From Nitrobacteraceae bacterium AZCC 2146 (GTDB lineage Bacteria; Pseudomonadota; Alphaproteobacteria; Rhizobiales; Xanthobacteraceae), in contig JBAGRP010000001.1 of NCBI GenBank assembly GCA_036924855.1, positions 2,294,001 through 2,358,000 of the forward strand: a DNA stretch of 64,000 bases. The letters run 5' to 3'. The position numbers and the translations under genes are program-made. The notes under the pieces were generated by a model that saw only the letters and a list, made by a program, of their open reading frames with translations, was not told the origin of the DNA and made no database searches. Below are positions 1 to 30,782 of the stretch, piece after piece (the first letter of the stretch is position 1; each line of letters opens with the position of its first letter).

Positions 1-102
1 GATCCGGGGCCCCGGTTTCCGCGACGAAGAAAGCGGGATCCCGGATCTGCGCAGCGTCATAAGAACGCCGCAGCGCGTCCGGGAAACGGGAACGCGCTTT
101 GA

Positions 103-903
103 CTAATAAAACCGGTGAAAATGATGCACGGGGCCGTGCCCATGGCCCACCGTGAAGCGATCGGCAGCCGCGATGGCGGAGGTGACATAGGCCTTTGCGG
201 CACGCACCGCGGTTTCCATGTCCTCGCCCCTGGCAAGGCCGGCGGCGATGGCGGAGGACAGGGTACAACCGGTACCGTGGGTGTTTGGCGTGGCGATGCG
301 CGGCGCCGGCAATGCGATGACATTCTCACGCGTAATGAGATAGTCGATGCTCTCGGCGCCGTGGCCGTGGCCACCCTTGATCAGCACCGCCTTGCAGCCC
401 AGCGTCAGCAGGCGTCGGCCCTGCTGCTCGATATCACTCTCGCTCACCGCCATCGCTTCGTCGAGCAGCGCCGCGGCTTCGGGCAGGTTCGGCGTGATGA
501 CGTCGGCAAGCGGAAGCAGCGTGGTGCGCAACGCCACGATGGCTTCGGGCGCCAGCAGCCGGTCGCCTGATGTCGCGACCATGACGGGATCGAGCACCAC
601 GTGCTTCGGTGCCCAGCGTTTGAGCCCGGCAACGATCGCGTCGATCACCTCACGCTGCGCCACCATGCCGATCTTGACGGCACCCACAGCGAGATCGTCA
701 AATACCGCGTCGATCTGCGCGGTGACGAAATTCGCCGGCACCTGATGGATTGACGTGACGCCCTGGGTATTTTGCGCCGTCAGCGCAGTGATGACCGAGG
801 CCCCGTAGACGCCGCAGGCGGCAAAAGTCTTGAGGTCGGCCTGAATGCCGGCTCCCCCAGAGGAATCCGAACCGGCGATGGTGAGCGCAATGGGCGTGGA
901 CAT
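103..903 (-). CDS. thiD: Hydroxymethylpyrimidine / phosphomethylpyrimidine kinase
   Basis: This is a 266-aa ribokinase-fold kinase that phosphorylates HMP and then HMP-P to HMP-PP for thiamine synthesis in the cytoplasm. The N-terminus carries the ThiD signature GSDSSGGAGIQ at residues 11-21, and the C-terminal anion-hole/catalytic segment reads HGTGCTLSS, with Cys213 in the family position. I chose the ATG at 903 because the frame is open further upstream to 1017 but that extension is low-complexity and runs into a perfect hairpin. From 903 the protein has normal ThiD length. It is divergent from the small RAM-domain gene at 1068. No THI-box-like leader was recognised. The assignment is secure. 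Confidence 0.93.
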   Translation of the reverse strand: MSTPIALTIAGSDSSGGAGIQADLKTFAACGVYGASVITALTAQNTQGVTSIHQVPANFVTAQIDAVFDDLAVGAVKIGMVAQREVIDAIVAGLKRWAPKHVVLDPVMVATSGDRLLAPEAIVALRTTLLPLADVITPNLPEAAALLDEAMAVSESDIEQQGRRLLTLGCKAVLIKGGHGHGAESIDYLITRENVIALPAPRIATPNTHGTGCTLSSAIAAGLARGEDMETAVRAAKAYVTSAIAAADRFTVGHGHGPVHHFHRFY

Positions 904-9860: not shown

Positions 9861-11090
9861 TTACTTGTCCTGCGACAGCGGCATCTGGATGTCACCGCTG
9901 ATGTGCTTGATCGGGCCCAGCGAGGACGGATTGATGTCGAAGTCGAAGATTTCCGTCGGCAGCCACAGCGTCGCGCAGGCGTTGGGCACATCGACCACGC
10001 CGGAGATATGGCCCTGGCACGGCGCGGTGCCGAGGATCGAATAGGCCTGGGCGCCGGAATAGCCGAACTTCTTCAGATATTCGATCGCGTTCAGGCAGGC
10101 CTGCCGGTAGGCGATGTGGACATCGAGATAATGCTGCTTGCCGGCTTCATCGACCGAGATGCCTTCGAAGATCAGATAGTCCTTGTAGTTCGGCGTCATC
10201 GGCGACGGCTTGAAGACGGGGTTCTTGATGCCGTATTTCGCCACGCCGTCCTTGATGACGTCGACCTTGATGTGCAGCCAGCCGGCCATTTCGATGGCGC
10301 CGCAGAAGGTGATCTCGCCGTCGCCCTGGCTGAAATGCAGATCGCCCATCGAGAGACCGCCGCCGGGCACATAGACCGGGAAGTACACTTTCGAGCCGCG
10401 CGACAGATCCTTGATGTCGCAATTGCCGCCATGTTCGCGCGGCGGCACGGTGCGTGCGCCTTCGGCGGCGGCCTTCTCTTTCGCTTCACCTTTCAGTCGG
10501 CCCATATGCGCGGTCGGGCCGAACGGCGGATTGGCGAGACCGGGCACGCGGGTCGGATTGGTGGCAATCAGTGCGGTCTCGCGCTCGTTCCAGGTCGCCA
10601 GCAATTTCGGATCCGGCAGGCAGCCGATCAGTCCGGGATGAATCAGGCCGGCAAAGTTCACACCCGGAATGTGCCGGGACGAGGTGTACATGCCCTTGAA
10701 GTCCCAGATCGATTTCTGCGCCAGCGGGAAGTGATCGGTGAGGAAGCCGCCGCCATTCTGCTTGGAGAAGAAGCCGTTGAAGCCCCACAGCGAATCTTTC
10801 ATCGGGCCGACATCGAGCAGGTCCACCACGAGGAGATCACCGGGTTCGGCGCCCTTGACGCCGATCGGACCGGACAGGAAGTGCACGATCGACAGATCGA
10901 TGTCGCGGACGTCATCGGCGGAATCGTTGTTCTTGATGAAGCCGCCGGTCCAGTCATAGGTCTCGACGATGAAGTCATCGCCCGGATTGACCCAGGCCAC
11001 CATGGGGATGTCGGAATGCCAGCGGTTGTGGATCATATCGTTGTCGTAGGCCGATTGCGTAAGATCGACCTTGATCAGTGTCTCTGGCAT
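9861..11090 (-). CDS. fmdA: Formamidase (acetamidase/formamidase family)
   Basis: This 409-aa cytoplasmic enzyme hydrolyses formamide to formate and ammonia. It matches the FmdA_AmdA family end to end, with segments such as FTMK-like start PETLIKVDLTQS, ATNPTRVPGL, EHGGNCDIKDL, GGGLSMGDLHFSQGDGE and QAYSILG. The family length of about 410 aa is preserved. The ATG at 11090 has GGGAG upstream; a TTG one codon earlier is less likely. It is the last gene of a unit with the urea/amide ABC transporter upstream, the same logic as the M. methylotrophus fmd cluster, so the imported amide is hydrolysed for nitrogen. Closely related enzymes also take acetamide. Confidence 0.93.
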   Translation of the reverse strand: MPETLIKVDLTQSAYDNDMIHNRWHSDIPMVAWVNPGDDFIVETYDWTGGFIKNNDSADDVRDIDLSIVHFLSGPIGVKGAEPGDLLVVDLLDVGPMKDSLWGFNGFFSKQNGGGFLTDHFPLAQKSIWDFKGMYTSSRHIPGVNFAGLIHPGLIGCLPDPKLLATWNERETALIATNPTRVPGLANPPFGPTAHMGRLKGEAKEKAAAEGARTVPPREHGGNCDIKDLSRGSKVYFPVYVPGGGLSMGDLHFSQGDGEITFCGAIEMAGWLHIKVDVIKDGVAKYGIKNPVFKPSPMTPNYKDYLIFEGISVDEAGKQHYLDVHIAYRQACLNAIEYLKKFGYSGAQAYSILGTAPCQGHISGVVDVPNACATLWLPTEIFDFDINPSSLGPIKHISGDIQMPLSQDK

Positions 11091-11134
11091 CAAATGCTCC
11101 CTGGGTTACAAGTCTTGGTTACGAGTCGTGGTAA

Positions 11135-11824
11135 TCAAACCGACAGATACTTGGCGATCTGCGCCGCATCGATGCCGTCGCGCGCCTCGTCGCGGACGAT
11201 CTCGCCGTTCTCGATCACCAGCACGCGGTCGGCGACATCGAGCGCGAAGCTCAGCACCTGTTCGGAAACGATGATCGACAAGCCCTTGGTGTCGCGGATC
11301 CGCTTCAGCGTGCGCGCCATCTCCTTGATGATCGACGGCTGGATGCCTTCGGTGGGCTCGTCCAGCAGCAGCACTTTCGGTTTGGTGGCGAGCGCACGCG
11401 CGATCGCCAGCTGCTGCTGCTGGCCGCCGGAGAGATTGCCGCCGCGGCGGCCCTTCATCTCCAGCAGCACCGGAAACAGCTCGTAGAGATCGCCGGGCAC
11501 TTCCTTGTCGCCGGAGACCACCAGACCGGTCTCGATGTTTTCCTTCACTGTCATGTGCGAAAAGATCATGCGACCCTGCGGCACGTAAGCGAGGCCTTTT
11601 GCGACGCGCTCATAGCTCTTCAGTCCGTTGATCTCGCTGCCTTGCATGGTCACCGAACCGCTCCTGGTCGGCACGATGCCCATCAGCGATTTCATCAGCG
11701 TGGTCTTGCCCATGCCGTTGCGGCCCATGATCGCCACGATCTCGTTGGGCGCCACGGAAACATTGAGCCCGTGCAGCACCTCGCTCTGGCCGTAGGCAAC
11801 ATGGAGATCGTTAATGGCAAGCAT
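11135..11824 (-). CDS. urtE: Urea/short-chain amide ABC transporter ATPase, UrtE-type
   Basis: This 229-aa ATPase is of the branched-chain amino acid (LivF) class. Walker A reads GRNGMGKTT, the signature is LSGGQQQQ, and Walker B is LLLDEPTEG. It couples ATP hydrolysis to import together with UrtD and the UrtB/UrtC permeases. It is the fifth gene of the transporter set, followed by fmdA. The presence of fmdA rather than urease nearby suggests short-chain amides (formamide, acetamide) as well as urea as substrates. The family is certain; the substrate is inferred from context. Confidence 0.9.
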   Translation of the reverse strand: MLAINDLHVAYGQSEVLHGLNVSVAPNEIVAIMGRNGMGKTTLMKSLMGIVPTRSGSVTMQGSEINGLKSYERVAKGLAYVPQGRMIFSHMTVKENIETGLVVSGDKEVPGDLYELFPVLLEMKGRRGGNLSGGQQQQLAIARALATKPKVLLLDEPTEGIQPSIIKEMARTLKRIRDTKGLSIIVSEQVLSFALDVADRVLVIENGEIVRDEARDGIDAAQIAKYLSV

Positions 11825-11971: not shown

Positions 11972-12727
<756 letters not shown>

Positions 12728-12736
12728 GATCGTCTC

Positions 12737-13879
12737 CTATTCCGCCGGGGCGCCGTCGGCGACGGACGAGTCGGTCCAGCCGTTCTTCGAACTCTTCTTG
12801 CGCATCAGCCGATCGATGCGCGGCTGCACGTAGTCGCTCCAGATGCCGGCAAGGCCATTCGGGAAGGCCAGCACCACGGCGATGAACAACCCGCCGAGGC
12901 CAAACAACCACAGCTCGGGAAAGGATTCCGAGAAGCTGGTCTTGGCGAAGTTCACCAGCAGCGTGCCGTAGACCGCGCCGAGGATCGACAGCCGACCACC
13001 GACCGCGGTGTAGATCACCATCTCGATCGACGGCACGATGCCGACGAAGGACGGCGACATGAAGCCCACCTGCAGCGCGAACATGGCGCCGCCGATCGCC
13101 GCGAAGATCGCCGCGACGCAGAAGGCAAAGATCTTGAAGTTGGCGACGCTGTAGCCGGAGAACCGCACCCGGTCCTCCTTGTCGCGCATCGCCACCAGGA
13201 TGCGGCCAAGCTTGGAGCGGCGGATGAACTGCGCGATGAAGATGCAGCCGAACAGGCAGGCCACCTCAAAGAAGTACAGCACGATCTTGGCGTGGTCCGG
13301 GCGGATATCCCAGCCCTTCAGGGTGCGCAGGTCGGTCATGCCGTTGATGCCGCCGGTGTAGCCCTGCTGGCCGACGATCAGGATGGTAAGGATCGCCGCC
13401 ACCGCCTGGGTGATGATGGCGAAGTAGGTGCCGCCGACGCGGCGCTTGAACATCGCGGCGCCGATGATGAAGGCGAAGAACGCCGGCACCACGATGATGG
13501 CGATCACGGTGAAGGTCAGGCTGTGGAACGGCTTCCAGAAAAACGGCAGCGAAGTGATCTGATTCCAGTCCATGAAATCCGGGATACCGGGGGTCGACTG
13601 GATCTTGGTGTTCTCCGGGCTCGAGGCTTCGAGCTTGAGGAACATCGCCATGCAATAGCCGCCGAGGCCGAAGAACACGCCCTGCCCCAGGCTGAGAATG
13701 CCGCCATAGCCCCAGCAGATCACCAGCCCCACCGCCACGAACGCATAAGTGAGATATTTAGCGACCAGGTTGAGCCGGAATACATCGAGGCACAGCGGCA
13801 GGATCACCACCAGGAGAACGGCGAGCGCGAGAATGCCGAGAAGCTCGGGCCGGTTTACGAGGCGTGCATTGTCGGACAT
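12737..13879 (-). CDS. urtC: Urea/short-chain amide ABC transporter permease, UrtC-type
   Basis: This 380-aa LivM-class inner-membrane permease has about nine to ten hydrophobic segments, with family segments such as GYGGILSLGQGVFFGLGGYC and the cytoplasmic ATPase-coupling stretch MRDKEDRVRFSGYSV. It pairs with UrtB to form the pore. The gene is 13 bp downstream of urtB and 9 bp upstream of urtD, so the genes are clearly one operon. The extended C-terminus ends in a soluble basic/acidic tail. Confidence 0.9.
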   Translation of the reverse strand: MSDNARLVNRPELLGILALAVLLVVILPLCLDVFRLNLVAKYLTYAFVAVGLVICWGYGGILSLGQGVFFGLGGYCMAMFLKLEASSPENTKIQSTPGIPDFMDWNQITSLPFFWKPFHSLTFTVIAIIVVPAFFAFIIGAAMFKRRVGGTYFAIITQAVAAILTILIVGQQGYTGGINGMTDLRTLKGWDIRPDHAKIVLYFFEVACLFGCIFIAQFIRRSKLGRILVAMRDKEDRVRFSGYSVANFKIFAFCVAAIFAAIGGAMFALQVGFMSPSFVGIVPSIEMVIYTAVGGRLSILGAVYGTLLVNFAKTSFSESFPELWLFGLGGLFIAVVLAFPNGLAGIWSDYVQPRIDRLMRKKSSKNGWTDSSVADGAPAE

Positions 13880-13892
13880 GGCTTGAGCCCTT

Positions 13893-14837
13893 TTATTTGC
13901 GGACCTTGAGGGCGAACAGCCCCTGCGGCCGCAGCATCAGAATTCCGACAATGGCGAGCAGCGTGAGAACCTTGGCCATCGACCCCGACATGAAGAATTC
14001 CATGGTCGATTGCGCCTGCGAGATGGTGAAGGCGGAAGCGATGGTACCGACCAGGCTCGCCGCGCCGCCGAACACCACGACCAGGAACGTATCGACGATG
14101 TAGAGCTGGCCGGAGGTCGGACCGGTCGATCCGATCATGGTGAAGGCTGACCCGGCGATGCCGGCAATGCCGCAGCCGAGACCGAAGGTGTAGCAATCGA
14201 CCCGTTCGGTATTGATGCCGACGGCGCCGGCCATCACGCGGTTCTGCACGACGGCGCGAACCTGGCGGCCCCAGCGCGATTTGTACATGATGTAGGCGAC
14301 CGCCATGGTGATCAGCAACGTCAAGCACATCACGAAGATGCCGTTGATCGGCACTTCGATGCTGTCGGTGATCTGCTTCGATCCCATCATCCATTGCGGC
14401 AGTTCGACGCCGACTTCACGCGCGCCGAAGATCGAGCGATAGGCCTGCTGCAGGATCAGGCTGAGGCCCCATGTGGCGAGCAGCGTATCGAGCGGGCGCT
14501 TGTAGAGATGCCGGATCAGCGCCCATTCCACCAGCATCCCCAGCGCACCGGCGGCGATGAAGGCCAGTATCATCGCGACGAAGAAGTAGCCGGAGAACAG
14601 CGACGGCAGAAAGGCCTGGAAGAAGTTCGAGGTCAGCCAGGTCACGTAGGCGCCGAGGATCATGAACTCGCCATGGGCCATGTTGATGACGCCCATCTGG
14701 CCGAAGATGATCGCCAGTCCCAGCGCCATCAGCACGTAGACCGAGAACAGGATCAGCCCCGCAAAGCCCTGCATCGCGAAGATGGCGCCGAGGTCGCCAA
14801 TCGAATAGTCGCCGAACATCGGTCCGTCCTCCGTCAA
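13893..14837 (-). CDS. urtB: Urea/short-chain amide ABC transporter permease, UrtB-type
   Basis: This 314-aa LivH-class permease has eight or more predicted membrane helices. Typical segments are FGQMGVINMAHGEFMILGAY near the N-terminus and RAVVQNRVMAGAVGINTERV in the cytoplasmic coupling loop. Some UrtB proteins carry a long periplasmic N-terminal extension; this one is the short form. It is the second gene of the operon, 78 bp after urtA. Confidence 0.9.
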   Translation of the reverse strand: MTEDGPMFGDYSIGDLGAIFAMQGFAGLILFSVYVLMALGLAIIFGQMGVINMAHGEFMILGAYVTWLTSNFFQAFLPSLFSGYFFVAMILAFIAAGALGMLVEWALIRHLYKRPLDTLLATWGLSLILQQAYRSIFGAREVGVELPQWMMGSKQITDSIEVPINGIFVMCLTLLITMAVAYIMYKSRWGRQVRAVVQNRVMAGAVGINTERVDCYTFGLGCGIAGIAGSAFTMIGSTGPTSGQLYIVDTFLVVVFGGAASLVGTIASAFTISQAQSTMEFFMSGSMAKVLTLLAIVGILMLRPQGLFALKVRK

Positions 14838-14915: not shown

Positions 14916-16175
14916 TTACTGGTAGCCTTTGGGGAACGGATCCGGCTCGACCAGGTCGGCGGTCTCGAACACCAACTCGAACTGGCCATCGAGCTTGGCC
15001 TTGCCGACGCGGGTCTTCGACCACAAGTGATGGTTCGGATGGATCCGAACGTAACCTTCCGGCGCGCCCTTGAATTCGACATCCGGCGAAGCCGCCGCAA
15101 TCTTGTCGACGTCGAAGGAGCCGGCCTTCTCAACCGTCGCTTTCCACAACCACGGGCCGAGATAGGCCGCCTGGGTAACGTCGCCAATCACGGTCTTTTC
15201 GCCCCACATCTTGTGGAACGCAGCCACGAACTTCTCGTTGTTCGGGTTCTTCAGGGACTGGAAGTACTTCATGCAGGCATAGGCGCCCGCAATGTTCTCG
15301 CCGCCGATGCCGTCGATTTCGTCCTCGGTCACCGAGATCGTGAGCAACGTCTGCTTGGCCAGGTCGATACCGGCCGCCTTGAGCTGCTTGTAGAAGGCGA
15401 CGTTGGAGCCACCGACCACGTCGGTGAAGATCACGTCGGGCTTGGTCAGCTTGATCTTGTTGATGACCGAGTTGAACTGGGTGTGGCCGAGCGGGAAGTA
15501 TTCTTCACCGACCACCTTGAGCTTGAGCATGTTCTCGATGTGCTTGCGCGCGATCTTGTTGGAGGTGCGCGGCCAGATGTAGTCGGAACCGATGAAGTAG
15601 AACGACTTGGCATTCTTCTCCTTGGCGATCCAGTTGATGCCGGCCAAAATCTGCTGCGTGGCTTCCTGGCCGGTATAGATCACGTTCTTGGACTGCTCGA
15701 GGCCTTCATAGAACGTCGGATAATACAGCATGCCGTTGTACTGTTCGACGACCGGCAGCACCGCCTTGCGCGAGGCCGAGGTCCAGCAGCCCATGATCGC
15801 CGCGACCTTGTCGTTGACGAGCAACTTCTTGGCCTTCTCGGCGAAAGTCGGCCAGTCCGACGCGCCGTCTTCCTGGATGAACTTGATCTTGCGGCCAAGC
15901 ACGCCGCCCATGGCGTTGATCTGCTCGATGGCGAGCTTTTCGGCCTGGATCGATCCGGTTTCCGAAATCGCCATGGTGCCGGTGGCGGAATGCAGGATGC
16001 CGACGGTGACTTCGGTGTCGGTGACCGCCAGACCCGTGGTATTGATGGCCGAGGTGGCCGGAGCCTGCGCAAAAGATGGGCGCGGCATCATCGTCAGGGC
16101 GGGCAGCGCGGCCATCCCCATCAGCAGTTTTCGCCGCAACGGCGACTGTAAGCCCGGTTTCTTCTCGTCTGACAT
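14916..16175 (-). CDS. urtA: Urea/amide-binding periplasmic protein, UrtA/FmdD-type
   Basis: This 419-aa periplasmic substrate-binding protein resembles UrtA/FmdD. The N-terminus has a twin-arginine-like or Sec leader (PLRRKLLMGMAALPALTMM ... SFAQAP). The mature part begins TVGILHSATGTMAISE and contains GCWTSASRKAVLPVVE and LYYPTFYEGLEQS, characteristic of the urea/amide branch of the amino-acid-binding family. The ATG at 16175 gives the correct signal peptide, so the longer open frame to 16379 is rejected. It is first in the operon and divergent from the NCS1-kinase; the 160-bp gap holds a large palindrome. Confidence 0.9.
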   Translation of the reverse strand: MSDEKKPGLQSPLRRKLLMGMAALPALTMMPRPSFAQAPATSAINTTGLAVTDTEVTVGILHSATGTMAISETGSIQAEKLAIEQINAMGGVLGRKIKFIQEDGASDWPTFAEKAKKLLVNDKVAAIMGCWTSASRKAVLPVVEQYNGMLYYPTFYEGLEQSKNVIYTGQEATQQILAGINWIAKEKNAKSFYFIGSDYIWPRTSNKIARKHIENMLKLKVVGEEYFPLGHTQFNSVINKIKLTKPDVIFTDVVGGSNVAFYKQLKAAGIDLAKQTLLTISVTEDEIDGIGGENIAGAYACMKYFQSLKNPNNEKFVAAFHKMWGEKTVIGDVTQAAYLGPWLWKATVEKAGSFDVDKIAAASPDVEFKGAPEGYVRIHPNHHLWSKTRVGKAKLDGQFELVFETADLVEPDPFPKGYQ

Positions 16176-16231: not shown

Positions 16232-16272
16232 TGCGGTGCACAGATACGCGAGATCGCGTATACTGCACCGCA
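16232..16272. promoter_or_regulatory. Nested 41-bp palindrome between urtA and the NCS1-histidine kinase
   Basis: The outer arms TGCGGTGCA (16232-16240) and TGCACCGCA (16264-16272) are perfect 9-bp complements. The inner arms ATACGCGA (16244-16251) and TCGCGTAT (16254-16261) are perfect 8-bp complements around GA. It lies 57 bp from the urtA start and 64 bp from the kinase start. The position and two-fold symmetry fit an operator for a dimeric or tetrameric regulator, possibly the LuxR-type response regulator at 19697. Confidence 0.6.
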
Positions 16273-16335: not shown

Positions 16336-19300
16336 GTGGCAGGGCGGCAGCGCATCGACCGTGTCAGGCGCCAGTACAATCAATGGGTCGCCAACCAGAC
16401 ACTGGAAGACTACGCACTGCGCTTCACCGCGAAGAGCGCGCGGCGCTGGTCCGCGGCCCGCGTCGCCAACACCGCGCTGGGTGCGATCTCCTTCCTCGCG
16501 CTGGAAGCCATCGGCGGCACCATCACCATCAACTACGGCGTCACCAACGCCGCCGCCGCGATCCTCGTGGTCAGCGTCATCATCTTCTTTTGCGGCCTGC
16601 CGATCGCCTACCATGCCGCAAAATGCGGCATCGACATCGACCTGCTGACCCGCGGCGCCGGTTTCGGCTATATTGGCTCAACGATTACGTCGCTGATTTA
16701 CGCGTCCTTCACCTTCATCTTCTTTGCCATCGAGGCGGTCATCCTCGCGGTGGCGCTGGAGATGTGCTTCGATATCCCGCGACCGATCGGCTATTTGATC
16801 AGCGCGGTCATCATCATCCCGCTGGTCACCCACGGCATCACGCTGATCAGCCGCTTCCAGCTGTGGACCCAGCCGATCTGGCTGGTGCTCAACCTGCTGC
16901 CCTTCGCGGCCATCGGCTATGCCAGCCGGCATTCCTTCGTCGAGTGGACCAAATTTCCCGGCGAGCACGGCAATCCCGCCGGCCACCTCGATCTGCTGCT
17001 GTTCGGAACAGCAGCCTCCGTGGTGTTCGCGCTGGTGGCGCAGATCGGCGAACAGGTCGACTTCCTGCGCTTCCTGCCGCGCGACCGCCGCAGCTCGAAG
17101 ACCTCGTGGTGGGTCGCGCTGCTGTGCGCAGGACCCGGCTGGATCATCGTCGGCGCGGTCAAATTGCTGGCAGGGTCCTTCCTCGCCTTCTTCGCGCTGA
17201 CCCACGGCGTTTCCGCAGAACACGCTGCCGAGCCGGCGCATATGTATCTCGAGGCGTTCAGGTATGTATTGTCCCAGCCGGATCTGGCGCTGGCGCTGAC
17301 CGGCACTTTCGTCATTCTCTCGCAGATCAAGATCAACGTCACCAACGCCTATGCCGGCTCGATCGCCTGGTCGAACTTCTTCTCCCGCCTCACCCACAGC
17401 CATCCCGGCCGCGTCGTCTGGCTGGTGTTCAACGTGCTGGTGGCGCTGCTGCTGATGGAGATCGGCGTCTACAAGGCGCTGGAGCAGACGCTGGCGCTGT
17501 ATTCCAACGTCGCCATCGCCTGGGTCGGCACGCTGGTGGCGGACCTCGTGATCAACAAGCCGCTCGGGCTGCGCCCGCAGCACATCGAGTTCAAGCGCGC
17601 GCATCTCTACGACATCAACCCGGTCGGCGTCGGCGCCATGCTGGCCGCCACCGTGATGTCGATCAGCGCGTTCTACGGCCTGTTCGGGCCGACCGCGAAG
17701 GCGCTGTCGCCGTTCGTGGCGCTGATCGCCGCGCTGGTTACCGCGCCCCTGATCGCCTGGGCGACCGACGGCAAATACTACATCGCGCGAAAACCGCGGC
17801 GCGCGTGGCAGAACCTGCCGGCGATCCAGTGCTGTATCTGCGAGCATTCGTTCGAGCCGGAGGACATGGCCTCCTGCCCGGCCTATGCCGGCCCAATCTG
17901 CTCGCTGTGCTGCTCGCTCGACGCGCGCTGCCACGACCTCTGCAAGCCGCATGCGCGGATTCAGGCGCAGGTCTCCGCGACGCTGGGCAAGCTGCTGCCG
18001 GAGCCGATCTACGCCCGCATCAATTCGCAGCTCGGCCATTACCTCGGCGTGTTTGCGCTATCCGCCGGACTGGTCGGCCTGACGCTGGGCATGATCTATC
18101 TGCAGACGTCGGCGGCTGACCCCTCCGACAGCCCGCAACTGGCCGACGTGCTGTGGAAGGTGTTCTTCGCACTCACCATCATCATCGGCGTCGTCGCCTG
18201 GCTGTTCGTGCTGGCCAAGCAAAGCCGCCGCGCCGCCGAAGCCGAGACCGTCAGGCAAACCGCGCTGTTGATGCAGGAGATCGTTGCCCACAAGCGCACC
18301 GACGCCGAACTGCAGCGCGCCAAGGAAGTCGCGGAATCCGCCAACCTCGCCAAGAGCCGCTATGTGGTCGGCCTCAGCCACGAGCTGCGCTCGCCGCTCA
18401 ACGCCATCAGCGGCTACGCGCAATTGCTGGAGCAGGATTCCAGCCTGCAGATGAAACCGCGCGACCAGGTCCGCGTCGTCCGCCGCAGTGCCGATCATTT
18501 GTCCGGCCTGATCGACGGCATCTTGGACATCTCGAAGATCGAGGCCGGCCGGCTGTATCTATCGCGCGACGAGGTGCGTCTCACCGACTTCCTCGATCAG
18601 CTGGTCGGCATGTTCCGCCTGCAGGCCGCCGCCAAGGGCATCGACTTCGTGTTCCGACGGCCGAACGTGCTGCCGGTCGTGGTCTATGCCGACGAGAAGC
18701 GGCTGCGCCAGATTCTGATCAACCTGCTGTCGAACGCGATCAAGTTCACGCAGACCGGCAGCGTGCAGTTCGTCATCCATTATCGCAGCCCGGTGGCGGA
18801 ATTCGAAGTGATCGACACCGGCCCGGGCATTCGCGCCGACGATCTGGAGCGCATCTTCGCGCCGTTCGAACGCGGCGCGCTTGGCGTATCGCAGCCGCAC
18901 ACCGGAACTGGTTTGGGCCTCACCATCAGCAAACTGTTGGCGGGCGTGATGGGCGGTGACATCCGCGTCACCAGCACGGTGGGCATCGGCAGCACGTTTC
19001 GCGTCAAGATGCTGCTGTCGGAGGTCACCAACCCGACCCGGATCGCGCCGGTGGATGCGCCGATCTTCGGCTATCATGGCGCGCGAAAAACCATCCTGGT
19101 CACCGACGACGATCCGACCCAGCGCGACCTGCTGCGCGAAGTGCTGACGCCGCTCGGCTTCATCCTGCTCAGCGCGCCGGACGGGCTGGCGTGCCTGAGC
19201 CTCGCCCAGCATTGCCGGCCCGACCTGTTCCTGCTCGATATCTCGATGGCCGGGATGGATGGATGGACGGTGGCGGAAACCCTGCGCTCGACGGGGCATC

Positions 19301-19696
19301 ATCAGGCGCGCATCCTGATGGTGTCGGCGAGCGCGCTGGAAGCCCACGGCACGCCGCTGGCTCAGCCGTTCCACGACGGCTACCTGATGAAGCCGATCGA
19401 CATTCCCCGCCTGCTTGAGCTGATCGGACAACTTCTCAAGATCGAATGGCAATATGAGCGCGACGACGAGATCGTGGCACCGCAATGGACGCCGAGCGGA
19501 TTGCGGCCACCGGTGCAGCATGTCGAGGACCTGATCAGCCTGGGGCAGATGGGTCACATCCGCGCCATCCAGCTCAAGCTCGACGAGATCGGCGGCGACT
19601 ATCCCGAGCACGCCGACTTCGTGGCGCAGATGCGCTCGCTGATCGACCGCTTCGATCTCGACCAGTACATGGCCACGCTCAAGACATTGTACAGCT

Positions 19697-19707
<11 letters not shown>
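16336..19707 (+). CDS. NCS1 permease-histidine kinase-receiver fusion protein
   Basis: This is a 1123-aa membrane sensor. Residues 1 to about 490 are a full NCS1-type (purine/cytosine/allantoin) permease-like domain with about twelve hydrophobic segments. Residues 499-539 are a cysteine-rich module (nine Cys, three His). Two more membrane helices (about 570-630) follow, then HisKA with His682 in LSHELRSPLNA, HATPase_c (NLLSNAIKFT, DTGPGI, GTGLGLTISK), and a receiver domain with VTDDDP and phospho-acceptor Asp968 in LLDISMAGMDG. The GTG at 16336 has AGGAG seven bases upstream, which decides the start. It overlaps the response regulator gene by 11 bp and is divergent from the amide transporter. 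The likely role is sensing a transported nitrogen compound; whether the permease half still transports is unknown. Confidence 0.88.
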
Positions 19708-20626
<919 letters not shown>

Positions 20627-20907: not shown

Positions 20908-22233
20908 ATGGCCCATTTCGGCCCGACTCGCCGTGCCCTGTTGAAGGGGACGCTCGCCACCGGGGCACTTGGCCTCACCGGATTTCCCGCTTTCGCCGAT
21001 CCCGCCTGGAAGAAGTATGCGGGCACCTCGATCGAGGCGAACCTGATCAAAGGGCCGCGTGGCGAACTGCTGCAGCGCCACGAGAAGGAATTCACTGAGC
21101 TCACCGGCATCAAGGTGTCGTCGGAGCTGATCCCGGAACAGCAGCAGCGCCAGAAGGCGGTGATCGAGCTGACCTCCGGCCGGCCGAATTTCGACGTCGT
21201 CCACGTCAGCTATCACGTGCAGAAACGACAGTTCGACAAGGCCGGCTGGCTCGCGGATTTCTCGGGCTTCATCAAGGACCCGAACCTCACCACCTCCGAC
21301 CTGACCAAGAACGATTTCTCCGCGGCCGGGCAGACCTACGCCACCACGGCGCAGGGACAGTTGCGCTCGCTGCCGTGGTCGGTCGATTACTTCATGGTCT
21401 ATTACAACAAGGAATTGTTCGCGAAGAAGAACCTGCCCTATCCCGACACGATCGAGGAGATGATCAAGGCCGCGGAAATCCTCAACGATCCCAAGGAAGG
21501 CATTTCCGGATTCGTCGGCCGCGGCTTGCGCAACGCCAACCTGCCGATGTGGGCCAGCATCTATCTCGGCTATGGCCTCGACTTCATCGACGACAAGGGC
21601 AACCTGCTCACCGACAGCCCGGAGGCGATCGAGGCCACCAAGCAGTATCAGTATCTGCTCACCAAGGCCGGCCCTCCCGGCGTCGCCGGCTTCAACTGGA
21701 TGGAATGCCAGGCCGCCTTCATTCAGGGCCGCGCCGCCATGTGGCTCGACGGCATCGGCTGGGCGCCGCCGCTGGAAGACCCGACCCGCTCCCGTGTCGT
21801 CGGCAAGGTCGGCTACGGCCTGATCCCGAAGGGACCGAAGGTCCGGGCCTCGCCGACCTATGGCGACGGCATCGGCGTCGCCGAAACCAGCAAGAACAAG
21901 GAAGCCGCCTATCTCTACTGCGAATGGGCGGTGTCGAAGCTGATGGGTGCGCGGCTGCTGCAGGCCGGCGGCGGCGTGCCGTTCCGCAATTCGGTGATCG
22001 ACGATCCCGCAACCCGCGCCGGCGTCAAGATGCCGAAGGAATGGCTGGACTGCGCGATCGAGTCGGCCAAGGTCAGCAAGCTCGGCCTGCCCGTGATCGT
22101 GCCGGTGGCGGAATTCCGCGACGTCATCGGCGCGGCGCTCACGGCCACATTGTCCGGCGCCGATCCCGCCACCGAGCTGAAGAAGGCCACCGAGCAGTTC
22201 AAGCCGATCCTGGAACGCAGCGAAAAGGCATGA
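20908..22233 (+). CDS. ABC transporter substrate-binding protein, family 1 (sugar-type)
   Basis: This 441-aa periplasmic binding protein has a twin-arginine leader (TRRALLKGTLATGALGL, cleavage after about FPAFA). The mature part has features of the extracellular solute-binding family 1, such as FDVVHVSYHVQKRQ, VYYNKELFAKKNLPYPDT, AAFIQGRAAMWLDG and a C-terminal AEFRDVIGAALTATLSG. The likely ligand is a sugar, polyol or related compound. Its stop overlaps the permease start (ATGA), so it is the first gene of a three-gene operon. A good RBS (GGGAGGA) lies upstream. Confidence 0.88.
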   Translation: MAHFGPTRRALLKGTLATGALGLTGFPAFADPAWKKYAGTSIEANLIKGPRGELLQRHEKEFTELTGIKVSSELIPEQQQRQKAVIELTSGRPNFDVVHVSYHVQKRQFDKAGWLADFSGFIKDPNLTTSDLTKNDFSAAGQTYATTAQGQLRSLPWSVDYFMVYYNKELFAKKNLPYPDTIEEMIKAAEILNDPKEGISGFVGRGLRNANLPMWASIYLGYGLDFIDDKGNLLTDSPEAIEATKQYQYLLTKAGPPGVAGFNWMECQAAFIQGRAAMWLDGIGWAPPLEDPTRSRVVGKVGYGLIPKGPKVRASPTYGDGIGVAETSKNKEAAYLYCEWAVSKLMGARLLQAGGGVPFRNSVIDDPATRAGVKMPKEWLDCAIESAKVSKLGLPVIVPVAEFRDVIGAALTATLSGADPATELKKATEQFKPILERSEKA

Positions 22234-23171
22234 GTCGTCTCACTTTAACCGGCGCGGCGGAGAAACCCGCCGCGCCTTCGTCGCCCAAAAGAGAATGGCG
22301 GCCGCCGACCTACTGGCCGTTCGTGCTGCCGGCGGTCATCGTGGTGGTCGGCATCATCATCTTCCCCTGGGTGTTCACCATCTGGATGAGCGGACAGGAA
22401 TGGAAGGTCGGCCAGGCGCCGAGCTTCGTCGGCTTTTCGAACTATACGCGGATGCTGACCGACACCCGCTTCATCGAATCCGCGATCCACACCATCATCT
22501 ACACCGGCCTCGCCGTGGTGCTGCCGCTGCTGCTGGGCACCATCGCCGCCTTGATTTTTCACAGCCGCTTTCCCGGCCGCGGGCTGCTGCGCGCGATCTT
22601 CGTGATGCCGATGATGGCGACGCCGGTGGCGATCGCTTTGGTCTGGACCATGATGTTTCATCCGCAGCTCGGCGTGATGAACTACCTGCTCTCGCTGGTG
22701 GGAATCCCCGCGCAGCTGTGGATCTTCCATCCGGCCACGGTGATCCCCTCTCTGGTGCTGGTGGAGACCTGGCAATGGACGCCGCTGGTGATGCTGATCC
22801 TGCTCGGCGGCCTCGCGGCGATCCCCACAGAGCCCTATGAGAGCGCGCAGATCGATGGCGCCACGCCGTGGCAGATGTTCCGCCACATCACGTTGCCGAT
22901 GCTGGCGCCGTTCATGCTGGTGGCGGCGATGATCCGCACCATCGACGCCGTGAAAAGCTTCGACATCATCTTTGCGATGACGCAAGGCGGTCCCGGCACG
23001 GCGTCGGAGACCATCAACCTCTATCTCTATTCGGTGGCCTTCGTTTACTACGATGTCGGCTACGGCTCGGCGATCGCCATCGTCTTCTTCGCGCTGGTGG
23101 TCGGCCTGTCGGTGCTGCTGCTTTTCCTGCGCCGCCGCACCCAATGGATGGAAGCGGGGACAGCCGCATGA
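22230..23171 (+). CDS. ABC transporter permease, MalF/UgpA-type
   Basis: This 313-aa inner-membrane permease has six predicted helices and the EAA coupling loop (EPYESAQIDGATPWQMFRHI, with ITLPML following). The start ATG overlaps the stop of the binding-protein gene by 4 bp. It forms the pore with the following MalG-type permease. The longer open frame upstream overlaps the binding-protein gene in another frame and is rejected. Confidence 0.9.
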   Translation: MSRLTLTGAAEKPAAPSSPKREWRPPTYWPFVLPAVIVVVGIIIFPWVFTIWMSGQEWKVGQAPSFVGFSNYTRMLTDTRFIESAIHTIIYTGLAVVLPLLLGTIAALIFHSRFPGRGLLRAIFVMPMMATPVAIALVWTMMFHPQLGVMNYLLSLVGIPAQLWIFHPATVIPSLVLVETWQWTPLVMLILLGGLAAIPTEPYESAQIDGATPWQMFRHITLPMLAPFMLVAAMIRTIDAVKSFDIIFAMTQGGPGTASETINLYLYSVAFVYYDVGYGSAIAIVFFALVVGLSVLLLFLRRRTQWMEAGTAA

Positions 23172-23983
23172 TCCGCAATCCCTTGCAGAGTCTCGGCCTG
23201 CTGTTTGCCGCGGTCATGCTGGTGTCGCCCGCGATTTTGTTTTTCATCTGGATGCTGTCGCTGTCGCTGAAATTCGAGATCGACAACTCCGCCTATCCGC
23301 CGATCCTGATCCCCAGCCAGGTGACGTGGCAGAACTACGCCCAGGTGATCGAGTCCAACCGCTTCGGGCAGTATTTTCTCAACAGCCTGATCGTGACGGG
23401 ATCGGCCACTTTGCTCGGCCTTGCCGTTGGCGTCCCCGCCGGCTACGGCATCGCGCGGATGAAGGCGATGAGATCCGCTTTCGTGGTTCTGATCGCGCGG
23501 ATGACGCCCGGCCTGTCCTATCTGATCCCGCTGTTCCTGCTGTTTCAGTGGCTCGGCCTGATGGGCACGTTGCTGCCGCAGATCCTGATCCACCTCGTCA
23601 TCACCGTGCCGATCGTGATCTACATCATGATCAGCTATTTCGAGACCACGCCGATGGAGCTGGAGGAAGCCGCCATCATCGATGGCGCCACCCGCTGGCA
23701 GGTGTTCCGCCACGTCGCGCTGCCGATCGCCAAGCCGGGCATCGCGGTGTCCTTCATCCTCGCGGTGATCTTCTCCTGGAACAACTTTGCGTTCGGCATC
23801 GTGCTGGCCGGCCGCGAGACCCGCACGCTGCCCGTCGCGGTCTACAACATGATCTCGTTCGATCAGCTGAGCTGGGGGCCGCTCGCCGCGGCGGCCTTGA
23901 TCGTCACGCTGCCGGTGCTGTTGCTGACGATGTTCGCGCAGCGGCAGATCGTGGCTGGGCTGACCGCAGGTGCGGTGAAGTAG
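23168..23983 (+). CDS. ABC transporter permease, MalG/UgpE-type
   Basis: This 271-aa permease has six helices and the EAA loop (MELEEAAIIDGATRWQVFRH). It overlaps the preceding permease by 4 bp. The operon ends here without an ATPase gene; an MsmK/UgpC-like ATPase encoded elsewhere must serve it. A palindromic repeat follows directly, possibly acting as transcript end. The substrate is unknown. Confidence 0.9.
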   Translation: MIRNPLQSLGLLFAAVMLVSPAILFFIWMLSLSLKFEIDNSAYPPILIPSQVTWQNYAQVIESNRFGQYFLNSLIVTGSATLLGLAVGVPAGYGIARMKAMRSAFVVLIARMTPGLSYLIPLFLLFQWLGLMGTLLPQILIHLVITVPIVIYIMISYFETTPMELEEAAIIDGATRWQVFRHVALPIAKPGIAVSFILAVIFSWNNFAFGIVLAGRETRTLPVAVYNMISFDQLSWGPLAAAALIVTLPVLLLTMFAQRQIVAGLTAGAVK

Positions 23984-24096: not shown

Positions 24097-26808
24097 TCAA
24101 TTCGCCACTGCCAGCCGCTGCTGCTCATCCGGCGCACTCACCTCCGCCTGCGCGATCAGCCGCTTCAATTCGGGAATGCAGGAGCCGCAATTGGTGCCGG
24201 CCTTGAGCTGCGCGCCGATCGCGGCAGCCGAGCCCGCGCCCGCCGCGATGGCATCGCAGATCGTATTGCGGCCGATGCCGAAACATGCGCAGACGATCGG
24301 CCCCGCGCCAGCGTGACCATCGGCGGATTTTCCTGACAGCAGCATGCGGCGCTGCTCGTCACTGAGCGCGTCGGCAGCAAACAGCGCCTTGACGGCATCC
24401 CAATCGATTCCGTCCTGCGCCGGACCGATGAACAGGCAGGCCTCGATCCGGTCGTCGACAAACGACGCCGCGCGAAAAACACCGCGGCCGGCATCTTCGA
24501 ACTCCGCCACGTCGTCGCCGAGCAGCGGCTGCAGCCACGACCGCCAACTCGCGAGATCTGAATTGTCCGCCAGCAGATAGCCGATGCCGCCGGTGACGGC
24601 GACACGCGCCCACCATGCCTGCTTCGGCAATGCGAGCGGCTTGCGTGACAGCACAAAGCCGCGCTGCGCGTAAGTGTGCGGCACGATCGAGACCGGCGTC
24701 GCCTTGTTCTCAGGCTGGCCGGAGAACGGATCGATGAACGGCGCCACCAGCGCCCCGACCCGTGCGGTGGAGGCGGTCTCGTCGTTCCAGTGGATCGGCG
24801 CGAACAGCATGCCGCGCTGCTGCCGCTCGCCCACGACCACCTTGAGAATGCAGTGGCCGTAGTCGGTAGCGAGGCGCGCATAGCCGCCATCGACGACACC
24901 GGCCTTCGCGGCATCGTCGGGATGGATTTCGACAAAGGGTTCCGGCAGATGCTGGCCGAGCCGCGGGCTCATGCCAGTGCGCGTCATGGTGTGCCACTGG
25001 TCGCGGACGCGGCCGGTGTTCAGCCGCAGCGGCCTCGCCGCGGAAACGTCGCTGCGCAGCGCCGGAACCTCCGGCGCGATGAAGCGTGCGCGGCGATCAT
25101 GGGCGTAGAAACGCCCGTCGGCGAAGAAGCGCGCGCGCGGCTGCGCCGTGCCCTCGCGGACCGGCCACAGCACCGGCGCCATCGCGTCGAAAGCGTCGTC
25201 GGACACCTTCATCAGCCCGCCGATGTCGAAATCGCGGTTGCCGTTGTTTTCGAACGCCGAGAGGCTGGCGTGCTCGCGGAAGATATCCGCTGCGGAATTG
25301 TAAGAAAATGACGTGCCGAAGCCCAAACGCCTGGCGACCTCGCTGACGATCCACCAATCCGGCCTGGCTTCGCCGGGCGCTTTCAGGAAGGAACGCTGCC
25401 GCGACACCCGGCGCTCCGAATTCGTTACCGTTCCGGATTTCTCGCCCCAGGCCTGCGCCGGCAGCAGCACATGGGCGCCGGCGTTCACGGTGTCGTTGGA
25501 CAGTACGTTCTCCGAGACCACGAACAGCTCGAGCTTCGCCATCGCCGCACGCACCGCATCGGCGTCGGGCAGCGACACCACCGGATTGGTACCCATCACC
25601 CACAACGCCTTGATCTCGCCGCGCGCGATCGCCTCGAACATCTGCACCGCCTTCAGCCCCTCATGGGTGGCGATGTGAGGCGCCTTCCAGAAGCGGCGGA
25701 CGCGATCGATGTCCGGCGGCGTGAAGCCCATATGGGCGGCGAGCTGGTTGGCAAGGCCGCCGACCTCGCGGCCGCCCATGGCATTGGGCTGTCCGGTCAG
25801 CGAAAACGGTGACGCGCCGATCTTGCCGATCCGCCCGGTGGCGAGATGGCAATTGATAATGGCGTTGACCTTGTCGGTGCCCTGCGCCGACTGGTTGACG
25901 CCTTGGGAATACAGCGTGACCACGCGCGGCGTTTGCCGGAACATCTGGAAGAAGGTCGCGACGTCAGCTTCGGCAAGCCCCGTCGCCAGCGCGGTCGCGG
26001 CGACGCTGCCGGCGATGCTTTTCGCCCGTACCAGCGCCTCGTCAAATCCAGCCGTGTGCTGATCGATATAGTTTTGATCCAGCGCGCCATGCTCGGCGAG
26101 ATGCGCGAACAGACCGCTGAACAAAGCCGTGTCGGTGCCGGGCTTCAGCCCGAGAAACAGATCGGCATCGCCTGAGGTGTCGGTGCGGCGCGGATCGATG
26201 ACGACGATGCGGGCGCCGCGCTTTTGTTTGTTGGCCAGCATGCGCTGGAACAGCACCGGATGGCACCAGGCGGCGTTGGAGCCGACCAGCACCAGCAGAT
26301 CGGCTTCGTCGAGATCCTCGTAGCAGCCGGGCACGGTGTCGGCGCCGAAGGCGCGGCGATGGCCGGCCACCGACGAGGCCATGCAAAGCCGCGAATTGGT
26401 GTCGACATTGGCACTGCCGATGAAGCCCTTCATCAGCTTGTTGGCGACGTAATAATCCTCGGTCAGCAGCTGCCCGGACAGATAGAACGCCACGGAGTCC
26501 GGCCCGTGCTCGGCAATGACCTGCCGAAAGCGATCCGCGACATGGTCGAGCGCGGTGTTCCACGCCACCTGCTGCATCGCACCGGTGCTGCTGCGGATCA
26601 TCGGATGCAGCAGGCGCTCACTCAGGCCCAGCGTCTCGCCGAGCGCGGAGCCTTTCGAACACAGCCGTCCCAGATTGGCGGGATGCTCGGGATCGCCAGA
26701 TATCGCCGCACCGCCGCTGCCATCCGGCGTCGCCAGCACACCGCAGCCGACGCCACAGTAGGGACAGGTGGTGCGGGTCGTGCGCAAAGCGGGATCGATG
26801 GCGGTCAT
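24097..26808 (-). CDS. nasC: Assimilatory nitrate reductase catalytic subunit
   Basis: This 903-aa cytoplasmic molybdopterin (bis-MGD) enzyme reduces nitrate to nitrite. The N-terminal [4Fe-4S] ligands are in CPYCGVGCGV (Cys15, 18, 22) and RLCSKG. The C-terminus carries an extra BFD-like [2Fe-2S] domain (CACFGIG ... TNCGSCIPELKRL), as in NasA/NasC proteins that take electrons from a flavoprotein. The start ATG is joined to the preceding flavoprotein stop as TGATG. It is last in the operon, after two globins and the flavoprotein, the same order as bjgb-flp-nasC in Bradyrhizobium diazoefficiens. No nitrite reductase gene follows here. Confidence 0.94.
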   Translation of the reverse strand: MTAIDPALRTTRTTCPYCGVGCGVLATPDGSGGAAISGDPEHPANLGRLCSKGSALGETLGLSERLLHPMIRSSTGAMQQVAWNTALDHVADRFRQVIAEHGPDSVAFYLSGQLLTEDYYVANKLMKGFIGSANVDTNSRLCMASSVAGHRRAFGADTVPGCYEDLDEADLLVLVGSNAAWCHPVLFQRMLANKQKRGARIVVIDPRRTDTSGDADLFLGLKPGTDTALFSGLFAHLAEHGALDQNYIDQHTAGFDEALVRAKSIAGSVAATALATGLAEADVATFFQMFRQTPRVVTLYSQGVNQSAQGTDKVNAIINCHLATGRIGKIGASPFSLTGQPNAMGGREVGGLANQLAAHMGFTPPDIDRVRRFWKAPHIATHEGLKAVQMFEAIARGEIKALWVMGTNPVVSLPDADAVRAAMAKLELFVVSENVLSNDTVNAGAHVLLPAQAWGEKSGTVTNSERRVSRQRSFLKAPGEARPDWWIVSEVARRLGFGTSFSYNSAADIFREHASLSAFENNGNRDFDIGGLMKVSDDAFDAMAPVLWPVREGTAQPRARFFADGRFYAHDRRARFIAPEVPALRSDVSAARPLRLNTGRVRDQWHTMTRTGMSPRLGQHLPEPFVEIHPDDAAKAGVVDGGYARLATDYGHCILKVVVGERQQRGMLFAPIHWNDETASTARVGALVAPFIDPFSGQPENKATPVSIVPHTYAQRGFVLSRKPLALPKQAWWARVAVTGGIGYLLADNSDLASWRSWLQPLLGDDVAEFEDAGRGVFRAASFVDDRIEACLFIGPAQDGIDWDAVKALFAADALSDEQRRMLLSGKSADGHAGAGPIVCACFGIGRNTICDAIAAGAGSAAAIGAQLKAGTNCGSCIPELKRLIAQAEVSAPDEQQRLAVAN

Positions 26809-28016
26809 CACGCCGCCTCGGCGAGCGAGCGGCCGAACATCATGTCGGCGCGAATGCCATCAACCGGCGCCGCGCTGCGGATCAATTCGAGATACCACAG
26901 CGCATCCTGGGTATCGCCAACCAGCACCGCGCCAGTGAGACGGCCATTGGCGATCACCAGCTTCTTGTAGGTACCGCGGCGGACATCGTTCAGCAGGATC
27001 GTCTCGCTGCCTTCGGCCGCCATGAAATCACCGGCGGAGAACACACTGACGCCGGACACTTTCAGGTTGGTGGCCAGCACGCTGCCAGTATAGGCCGCAG
27101 CGCCGCCGGCGAGATGCCGTGCCAGCACCTTCGCCTGTTCGTAAGCCGGCTCGACGAGGCCATAGCAGGTGCCGCGATGCTCGGCGCATTCGCCGAGCGC
27201 GAAGATATCTTCCGTGCCGGTCGCCATCTGATCGTTGACGACGATGCCGCGATTGACCGGGACGCCGGCGTCCTTTGCCAAGGAGATGTTGGGCCGAATG
27301 CCGGCGGCAAAGATCACCGCATCGGCGTCGAGTGTGCGGCCATCGGCCAGCTCGACGCTTTCGACATTCGTCTCGCCGTGAATTTTTGCGGTGTTGGCGT
27401 TGAGCAGGACGTTAACACCCTTGCGTTCGACCAGCGTCTTCAGCAGCGCCGCGGCAGAAGCATCGAGTTGTCGCTCCATCAAGCGATCCATCAGATGGAT
27501 CAGCGTTACCGAGGCGCCGGCCTTGGCGAGGCCATAGGCCGCCTCAAGCCCGAGCAACCCGCCGCCGACCACAACGACGCGCTTCTTCTGCGCGGCGAGG
27601 TCAAGCAGCAGATCGACATCGCGGCTGTCGCGAAACGTATGCACGCCGGCGAGATCGCCGCCCGGCACCGGCAACCGCAGCGCCGACGAGCCCGTCGCCA
27701 GCACCAGCTTCGAAAACGCCACGCGCTTGCCGTTGGCGATCCTGACCTCGCGCGCGGCCATATCGATTTCCGTGGCCATCGAGCCATATTTCAAGGTCAC
27801 GCCGCGGTCGCGCCACCAGGAGGCCGAGCGTAACTCGATCTCTTCGGAAGTCGCCTCGCCGGCCAGCACCGACGACAGCAGCACGCGATTGTAAGCGAGC
27901 CGCGGCTCGTCGCCGATCACGGCAATCGCATAGCGGCCGAGCGCGCATTTGGCGAGTTCGTCGACCAGCCGCGCCGCCGCCATTCCATTGCCAATGATCA
28001 CCAGCGGCTCGCTCAC
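26808..28016 (-). CDS. FAD-dependent NAD(P)H reductase for nitrate assimilation (Flp-like)
   Basis: This 402-aa flavoprotein belongs to the pyridine nucleotide-disulphide oxidoreductase family. FAD-binding GNGMAAAR is near the N-terminus, the NAD(P)-binding motif is VVVGGGLLGLEAAYGL, and the second FAD motif is IFALGECAEHRG. It corresponds to the N-terminal reductase half of NirB/NasB but lacks the sirohaem part, so it is an electron donor rather than a nitrite reductase. In B. diazoefficiens, Flp feeds electrons to NasC and the globin Bjgb. It is 9 bp downstream of the first globin gene and overlaps nasC. Confidence 0.9.
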   Translation of the reverse strand: MSEPLVIIGNGMAAARLVDELAKCALGRYAIAVIGDEPRLAYNRVLLSSVLAGEATSEEIELRSASWWRDRGVTLKYGSMATEIDMAAREVRIANGKRVAFSKLVLATGSSALRLPVPGGDLAGVHTFRDSRDVDLLLDLAAQKKRVVVVGGGLLGLEAAYGLAKAGASVTLIHLMDRLMERQLDASAAALLKTLVERKGVNVLLNANTAKIHGETNVESVELADGRTLDADAVIFAAGIRPNISLAKDAGVPVNRGIVVNDQMATGTEDIFALGECAEHRGTCYGLVEPAYEQAKVLARHLAGGAAAYTGSVLATNLKVSGVSVFSAGDFMAAEGSETILLNDVRRGTYKKLVIANGRLTGAVLVGDTQDALWYLELIRSAAPVDGIRADMMFGRSLAEAA

Positions 28017-28025
28017 GATAATTCC

Positions 28026-28451
28026 TTACTCGGCGGCTTGCGCGTTGTCGTAGGCTTCGGAAATCATGTAGCCGGACAGCGTGCCATAGGCCGCGGTCCA
28101 GGCTGCGGCGAGTTCGGGATTCCAGGCCTCGCCGAGCCCCTTCTCCAGCGTCCACAGCAGCGCCGCGCCGACGATCGGATAATGCGCGGCCTTGACGCCG
28201 TAGCCGACGTGCTTCTTCGCCAGCGCGCTGGCGGCGGGCAATACGGTTTCGAGTTTCGTCAGGCCGGTGACGACGACACCCAACGTCGCCATCAGCTTGC
28301 GGCGCTGCTCCGCCATGTCGCCGTGAAACATCGACCTTACCTGCGGGGCAACTTCGAATAACCGGTCGTAGAACAACACCGCAGCCTGGTCGGCGATCGG
28401 CGCGACTTTCGCAAAGCTTTCCTGAACCAATGTGATCTGTGACGGATTCAT
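28026..28451 (-). CDS. Single-domain haemoglobin (Bjgb-like)
   Basis: This 141-aa globin resembles the haem domain of flavohaemoglobins and Vitreoscilla haemoglobin. The proximal His81 is in KKHVGYGVKAAHY and the expected B/CD-region segment LFYDRLFEVAP is present. No reductase domain is attached; the neighbouring flavoprotein can supply electrons. In B. diazoefficiens the homologous Bjgb protects against nitric oxide formed during nitrate assimilation. A strong RBS (AGGAGG) precedes the ATG. This is one of two globin genes in tandem. Confidence 0.92.
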   Translation of the reverse strand: MNPSQITLVQESFAKVAPIADQAAVLFYDRLFEVAPQVRSMFHGDMAEQRRKLMATLGVVVTGLTKLETVLPAASALAKKHVGYGVKAAHYPIVGAALLWTLEKGLGEAWNPELAAAWTAAYGTLSGYMISEAYDNAQAAE

Positions 28452-28536
28452 AGCAACTCTCCTCCTGTGTGAAGATGAGCCTGTGTGTCGCGCCGCGTGA
28501 ACAAGGGTTCACCACGTGGACAAATGCGATGCGCGC

Positions 28537-28962
28537 TTATTGATAGGCCGCGGAAATCATTCGCGCGGAGAGGAAGGCGTAGACCTTCTGCCAGGCCTCT
28601 TCGACGTCCGGCGTCCAGTGCGGGCCGAGCCCCTGCTCCAGACTCCAGAACAGCGCCTCGCCGACCGGTGCGTAATGCGTTTCCAGCACGCCATAGTGCA
28701 CGTGGTCTTTCGCGAGCTTGCCGATCACCGACAACAGGCCGGTGATATTGTCGAGGCTGCCGACGATCACCGCCAGCGTCGCGATGAACTTGTGCTTGAG
28801 CTGCACCATGTCGCCGCGAAACATCGGTCGCGTTTCCGGCAATATCTCGAACAGCCGATCGTAGAACAGATCGACCATGACCGCGGATCGCGGCCACATC
28901 CGGTCGAACGAAGTCTGCACGCGGGTGATTTCTTCGCGTGTCAGGTCGGTCGAACGATTCAT
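28537..28962 (-). CDS. Second single-domain haemoglobin
   Basis: This 141-aa globin is homologous to the downstream globin but clearly diverged: it opens NRSTDLTREEITRVQTSFDR, has LFYDRLFEILPETRPMF, and His87 in KDHVHYGVLETHY is the proximal ligand. The ATG at 28962 matches the start of the paralogue; an in-frame ATG at 28995 would add 11 residues and cannot be excluded. An 85-bp gap with a small hairpin (28497-28512) separates it from the next globin. It probably also handles nitric oxide or oxygen in nitrate assimilation. Confidence 0.9.
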   Translation of the reverse strand: MNRSTDLTREEITRVQTSFDRMWPRSAVMVDLFYDRLFEILPETRPMFRGDMVQLKHKFIATLAVIVGSLDNITGLLSVIGKLAKDHVHYGVLETHYAPVGEALFWSLEQGLGPHWTPDVEEAWQKVYAFLSARMISAAYQ

Positions 28963-29036
28963 GATCTGCAGCTGTCTGGAAACTCTGAGCCGCATTCATT
29001 CGTTTTGTCCCTGGAAGTCAAGAGGTAATGAGATGC

Positions 29037-29831: not shown

Positions 29832-29842
29832 GACATGATCCC

Positions 29843-30736: not shown

Positions 30737-30782
30737 TGCATTGTTCTCCGTGATCGAAGCATGGCCCCCGCGCATCAACATC

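Follow-up and report, generated by a model that had tools for sequence, protein, structure and literature searches.

What does a histidine kinase sense when its N-terminal part resembles a permease and its gene lies beside an amide/urea importer? The question is raised by one gene in a 64,000-nucleotide stretch of DNA (the window). Transporter-built sensor kinases have been described for few transporter types. Judged from the DNA and its translations, we consider it reasonably probable that this kinase is a receptor derived from an NCS1-type permease, which would sense urea or a short amide and induce importer and hydrolase genes through a partner regulator and a palindromic site.

The kinase chain and its membrane domain

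The kinase gene (16336..19707, + strand) was one intact frame of 1123 amino acids, with a GTG start at 16336, preceded by a ribosome-binding site, and a stop at 19707. On the same strand it encoded an NCS1-fold membrane domain (about residues 22–485, 16399..17790; range from the alignment to CodB, 22..479), an eight-Cys segment (about residues 498–540, 17827..17955), two long helices (residues 565–594 and 596–669, 18028..18342), HisKA (18352..18549), HATPase_c (18691..19014) and a receiver domain (19093..19425). The last three were identified with Pfam and retained their phospho-residues (His682 at 18379–18381 and Asp968), a hybrid histidine kinase layout. An earlier note on this DNA had described the same parts in a single transporter–kinase chain. 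This was confirmed, and no frameshift separated permease and kinase, which form one protein. Between the membrane domain and HisKA, the predicted model placed the Cys segment, two short helices and the two long helices, the second of which extended towards HisKA; the helices were read from the model. A Pfam scan of the protein detected no PAS or other sensor domain. The eight-Cys segment had no Pfam match, and a fold search with it gave nothing significant (best E 0.33; RING, LIM and PHD chains only at E 1.7 or worse). The 3' end of the kinase gene shared 11 bases with the gene of the partner response regulator (19697..20626, + strand), which contained a receiver and a LuxR-type helix-turn-helix according to Pfam.

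Structure comparison identified the membrane domain as the NCS1 variant of the LeuT fold. The nearest solved chains were NCS1 proteins, and SSS chains, e.g. 5nva (22.8) and CHT1 (23.7), ranked among other LeuT-fold proteins. The Pfam SSF model did not match the kinase, and thus no N-terminal SLC5 (SSS) domain was recognized. The Pfam NCS1 model (PF02133) matched 2 of 46 alignment members and not the window kinase, and direct PDB sequence searches with the fused domain were empty, even when a profile was used and E values as high as 10 were accepted. The NCS1 assignment therefore rests on profile–profile comparison and on the fold.

The alignment with Mhp1 suggested in the earlier note had a divided outcome. 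Asn318 of Mhp1 was kept as Asn337, whereas Gln121 was replaced by Glu133 and, in two separate profile alignments, the Na2-site residues Ser312 and Thr313 by Lys332 and Ile333. The profile alignment also paired Trp117 with Phe129; Trp220 and the TM1 residues mapped inconsistently from one alignment to another, or not at all, and were set aside. While the NCS1 fold stood, the description of the domain as a 'complete' permease was overstated, since the Na2 residues and Gln121 are replaced and the sequence has diverged too far for the Pfam NCS1 model to match. By these replacements and by its fusion, the kinase differs from the unfused NCS1 transporters CodB and Mhp1. The predicted pocket residues E133, K332 and N337 were invariant in 161 aligned proteins (the window protein, 80 close relatives and 80 from genome samples, in which the same gene may appear twice), as were N334, Q236, E239, Q240, D242, K276, Q330 and the eight cysteines. 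With Lys332 in place of Ser312, sodium coupling is unlikely; the lysine points to a domain that either couples to protons or has lost transport. Sodium coupling is not universal among NCS1 members.

Like the window kinase, CbrA, CrbS/MxtR and RpuS are reported to combine a histidine kinase with a transporter domain of LeuT fold, and CrbS and RpuS are likewise hybrid kinases with LuxR-type partner regulators (PMC5715377, PMC9100948, PMC13022988). CbrA also shares the lysine in the Na2 site (PMC13022988). The SLC5 domain of this group is followed by STAC and PAS, whereas in the window kinase the eight-Cys segment and the pair of long helices came after an NCS1-fold domain and Pfam showed no PAS. 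The ligands given for the group are acetate, histidine and pyruvate, in contrast to the urea or short amides proposed here. Ks-Amt5 is described as an ammonium sensor kinase whose transporter part was converted to nitrogen sensing (PMC5764959), as we propose for the window protein. It differs in having an Amt fold and a single kinase and none of the window kinase's linkers. Searches of an open-access library turned up no description of an NCS1–kinase fusion. JGI product names already couple 'histidine kinase' with 'purine-cytosine permease-like protein', so the fusion has been met by automatic annotation.

Amide and urea genes at the kinase locus

Upstream of the kinase gene and divergent from it lay fmdA-urtEDCBA, all on the − strand: a urtA-type substrate-binding protein (14916..16175; the frame opens at 16379 and the start at 16175 was picked by conservation), urtB-type (13893..14837) and urtC-type (12737..13879) permeases, urtD-type (11972..12727) and urtE-type (11135..11824) ATPases and the formamidase fmdA (9861..11093). 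Each gene scored above its NCBIfam cut-off, and fmdA was also matched by Pfam. According to a 2026 paper, formamide may be what urtABCDE imports when it lies next to fmdA (PMC13209695). The response regulator gene was followed by a sugar-type ABC importer (SBP_bac_1 and permeases, 20908–23983). Assimilatory-nitrate-type genes at 24097–30781 (− strand) encoded a molybdopterin reductase ending in Fer2_BFD, a NirB-like FAD protein, a protein resembling haemoglobin and an ABC permease of the nitrate type, and place the sensor kinase in a nitrogen-assimilation neighbourhood.

The kinase family was present in 53 of 398 sampled Pseudomonadota genomes, counting its own genome and one copy that was a fragment; 56 genomes matched at E ≤ 1e-5, and three with distant permeases only were left out. 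Flanks were read for 79 loci. These comprised a set of 59 (57 loci of the other 52 genomes and two from the order sample) and 20 further loci, taken from the 22 loci L115–L136 (L118 and L132 omitted); order-sample matches without a locus identifier were not taken. The flanks were searched for urt, fmdA and urease genes only, and fmdA, urt-type or urease genes were nearby in 76 of the 79 loci. The remaining three (L184, L197 and L198) were truncated by contig ends, and L184 still contained the start of urtA. A locus was classed as amide if fmdA was present or UrtB had at least 58% identity. Within the 59-locus set, 56 loci had such genes: 39 amide (four with fmdA and no urt), six urease, six urea ABC, four urease plus urea ABC and one mixed. 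All 20 further loci had them as well (7 amide, 13 urea). The placement of an NCS1-type sensor beside an amide/urea importer, to which the earlier note had drawn attention, thus recurs across Pseudomonadota and argues for a receptor.

Canonical fmdA (E < 1e-160) was found in 40 of the 398 genomes, 39 of which encoded the kinase (exception G114), compared with 14 of the other 358; these counts are descriptive because related genomes are not independent. Co-occurrence with nitrogen genes, a check named in the earlier note, was strong in loci and genomes alike, and the genome counts also point to a receptor. So do four genomes with two kinase copies (G158, G225, G246 and G379), in each of which one copy was at an amide cluster and the other at urease genes. 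A tree built from 57 proteins required four changes to account for urea linkage, at least three of them forced by supported branches, and the constancy of E133, K332 and N337 despite these changes is further evidence for a receptor. None of the single residues tested accounted for the difference between amide and urea linkage. Residue 398, predicted beforehand as a discriminator, was right for 4/4 loci predicted as urea and for 7/16 predicted as amide, was wrong for the other 9/16 and was rejected. T336M, chosen afterwards, was consistent in the same 20 loci (M in 13/13 urea, T in 7/7 amide), while 16 other urea loci had T (8), M (5) or A (3).

The earlier note had listed allantoin, a purine, a hydantoin or an amide as possible ligands. 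The amide was retained, and the list was narrowed to urea and short amides by the fmdA, urt-type and urease genes for which the flanks were searched and by an AmiS/UreI gene (L142). Gene linkage cannot separate urea, formamide and acetamide. Better-known NCS1 transporters have purine, allantoin or hydantoin substrates. A ligand of this kind would agree with the family's substrates, with a distant unfused relative that adjoins Hydantoinase_A and AmiC/AmiR-type genes (L138) and with a xanthine dehydrogenase/aldehyde oxidase family gene in the window (41800–44124, 22 kb from the kinase gene). It is nonetheless very unlikely, given that the neighbours recurring at 76 of 79 loci were those amide and urea genes, for which the flanks were searched, and that Gln121 and Trp117 of Mhp1 are Glu133 and Phe129 here. 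The AmiC/AmiR system resembles the role proposed for the kinase in its amide-responsive control of an amidase cluster (PMC13209695), and differs in using a soluble binding protein and antitermination with no kinase; it was found only beside the L138 relative.

Among 72,556 plasmid records, 532 also contained the family, and Klebsiella accounted for 342 of these. The one such plasmid locus that was read, on a Klebsiella pneumoniae conjugative plasmid (L224), had fmdA-urtEDCBA beside the sensor kinase. Some plasmid records label the kinase ArcB. Two records labelled Acinetobacter phage (CAKLQH020000001.1 and CAKLQF020000001.1) carried the kinase at 53% identity and may be host sequence filed as phage.

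A palindrome between urtA and the kinase gene

The palindrome TACGCGAGATCGCGTA (16245..16260), of the form TACG-N8-CGTA, lay between the divergent urtA and kinase genes. The intergenic DNA was conserved across 79 sequences and contained the palindrome. Of 78 loci (window counted), 46 had TACG-N8-CGTA no more than 350 bases ahead of the kinase gene, compared with a mean of 0.27 in 100 block shuffles and with 0 or 1 for the other spacings from 2 to 15. Across all 79 loci there were 70 sites, and 66 of these fell between −40 and 450 bases from a tested start (kinase, urtA, urtB, fmdA or ureC). The 66 sites belonged to 57 loci, made up of 36 of the 42 amide loci that have urt, 20 of the 29 urea loci, none of four fmdA-only loci and one locus from the cut or mixed group. 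For five control patterns, 0 to 7 sites were near these starts, out of 2 to 109 sites, and the difference supports the proposed receptor. The loci without the site, among them 9 urea loci, 6 amide loci with urt and every fmdA-only locus, weigh against it. Where urtA was distant from the kinase gene, the palindrome stayed at urtA (L164, L187, L191, L209 and L214).

By its position, the palindrome is a candidate site for the partner LuxR-type regulator. CrbR, a LuxR-type regulator that works with an SLC5 kinase, is reported to require an inverted repeat (PMC5715377). The strict palindrome occurred three times in the window's own genome, one of the other two copies lying after an aconitase-like frame and before the frame that follows, and the second within a frame; no wider regulon was found there with the strict form. 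In rhizobia and many other Pseudomonadota, the kinase system would supply urea and amide use with a candidate regulator and its predicted DNA site. A tractable host is Sinorhizobium meliloti, where the homologue on pSymB has urtABCDE, dctD and a gene for a dicarboxylate symporter in its vicinity.

Unfused relatives and the proposed signalling route

At four loci (L141–L143 and L199), the sensor protein was shorter, about 890 amino acids, and near fmdA. The one scanned with Pfam (L142) had HisKA and HATPase_c and no receiver, and both an OmpR-type regulator gene and the AmiS/UreI gene were close by; L143 had a separate receiver-kinase gene. That the sensor is still near fmdA when placed on a different kinase again argues for a receptor.

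Among the best 120 of 413 distant unfused relatives, E133, N334 and N337 were each present in 120/120, position 332 was Arg in 112 and Lys in 8, and differences were observed at E57, Q236, E239, Q240 and K276. CxxC..CxxC, four of the eight cysteines, was present in 116 of these 120, so those cysteines are not kinase-specific. This bears on the alternative that the signal is cytoplasmic, e.g. metal or redox state read by the eight-Cys segment, with the permease-like domain as anchor or modulator. The invariance of the eight cysteines in 161 proteins fits such a role, as does the CbrA transporter domain, which is reported not to be essential for perception (PMC9100948). We consider this alternative unlikely, as the pocket residues vary no more than the cysteines do, four of the latter occur in unfused proteins and Pfam showed no PAS or other sensor domain.

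A closer unfused relative was found on a Tsukamurella plasmid (L225:8947–10635; 43% identity over 91%; annotated as hypothetical protein). It had the same pocket residues, including Q236, E239, Q240 and K276, with Phe at position 57 and one of the eight cysteines. Its gene was near genes annotated as zinc ribbon protein and formamidase, from which a single HNH endonuclease gene separated it, and the relative is a candidate amide transporter. In this comparison, which is of one locus, the pocket accompanies amide genes, whereas E57 and all eight cysteines accompany the kinase. A pocket kept near formamidase is in line with a receptor for amides. It would also suit a true transceptor, in which urea or amides would still pass through the NCS1-fold domain and kinase activity would follow flux, not binding: the pocket is identical in the Tsukamurella protein, presumably a transporter, and the CbrA domain is reported to transport histidine and to have Lys in its Na2 site (PMC13022988). 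A transceptor is improbable, as a dedicated ABC importer adjoins the kinase gene, position 57 is E in fused proteins and F, V, L, M or I in unfused ones, and Ks-Amt5 reportedly lost transport on becoming a sensor (PMC5764959).

For a receptor, we infer the ligand, the direction of signalling, the phosphotransfer route and regulator binding from the observed domain order, fold, invariant residues, gene linkage and position of the palindrome. Urea or a short amide, formamide for example, would bind in the central pocket and shift the permease-like bundle as in a transport cycle. Reading on from the anatomy of the protein, the eight-Cys segment and helix pair may relay the shift to the coiled long helix above HisKA and thus to the kinase, and the phosphoryl group would pass to the LuxR-type regulator. 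Bound at TACG-N8-CGTA, the regulator would turn on importer and hydrolase genes, i.e. urt-fmdA here and urea importer or urease genes elsewhere. A more detailed version is plausible, if slightly less likely than not: an additional class of receptors descended from transporters, here an NCS1-derived receptor for urea or short amides with Lys at the sodium site, in which a four-Cys knuckle would have become an eight-Cys, possibly two-metal, relay. By way of one regulator and one palindrome, the receptor would control two different nitrogen operons and would have moved at least three times from one to the other. The same pocket occurs fused and unfused, at amide and at urea genes and sometimes at both in one genome, which makes the transporter-to-receptor step testable. 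Distant unfused NCS1 relatives with a four-Cys tail were also seen at L138:3923–5566 and L139:4657–6300.
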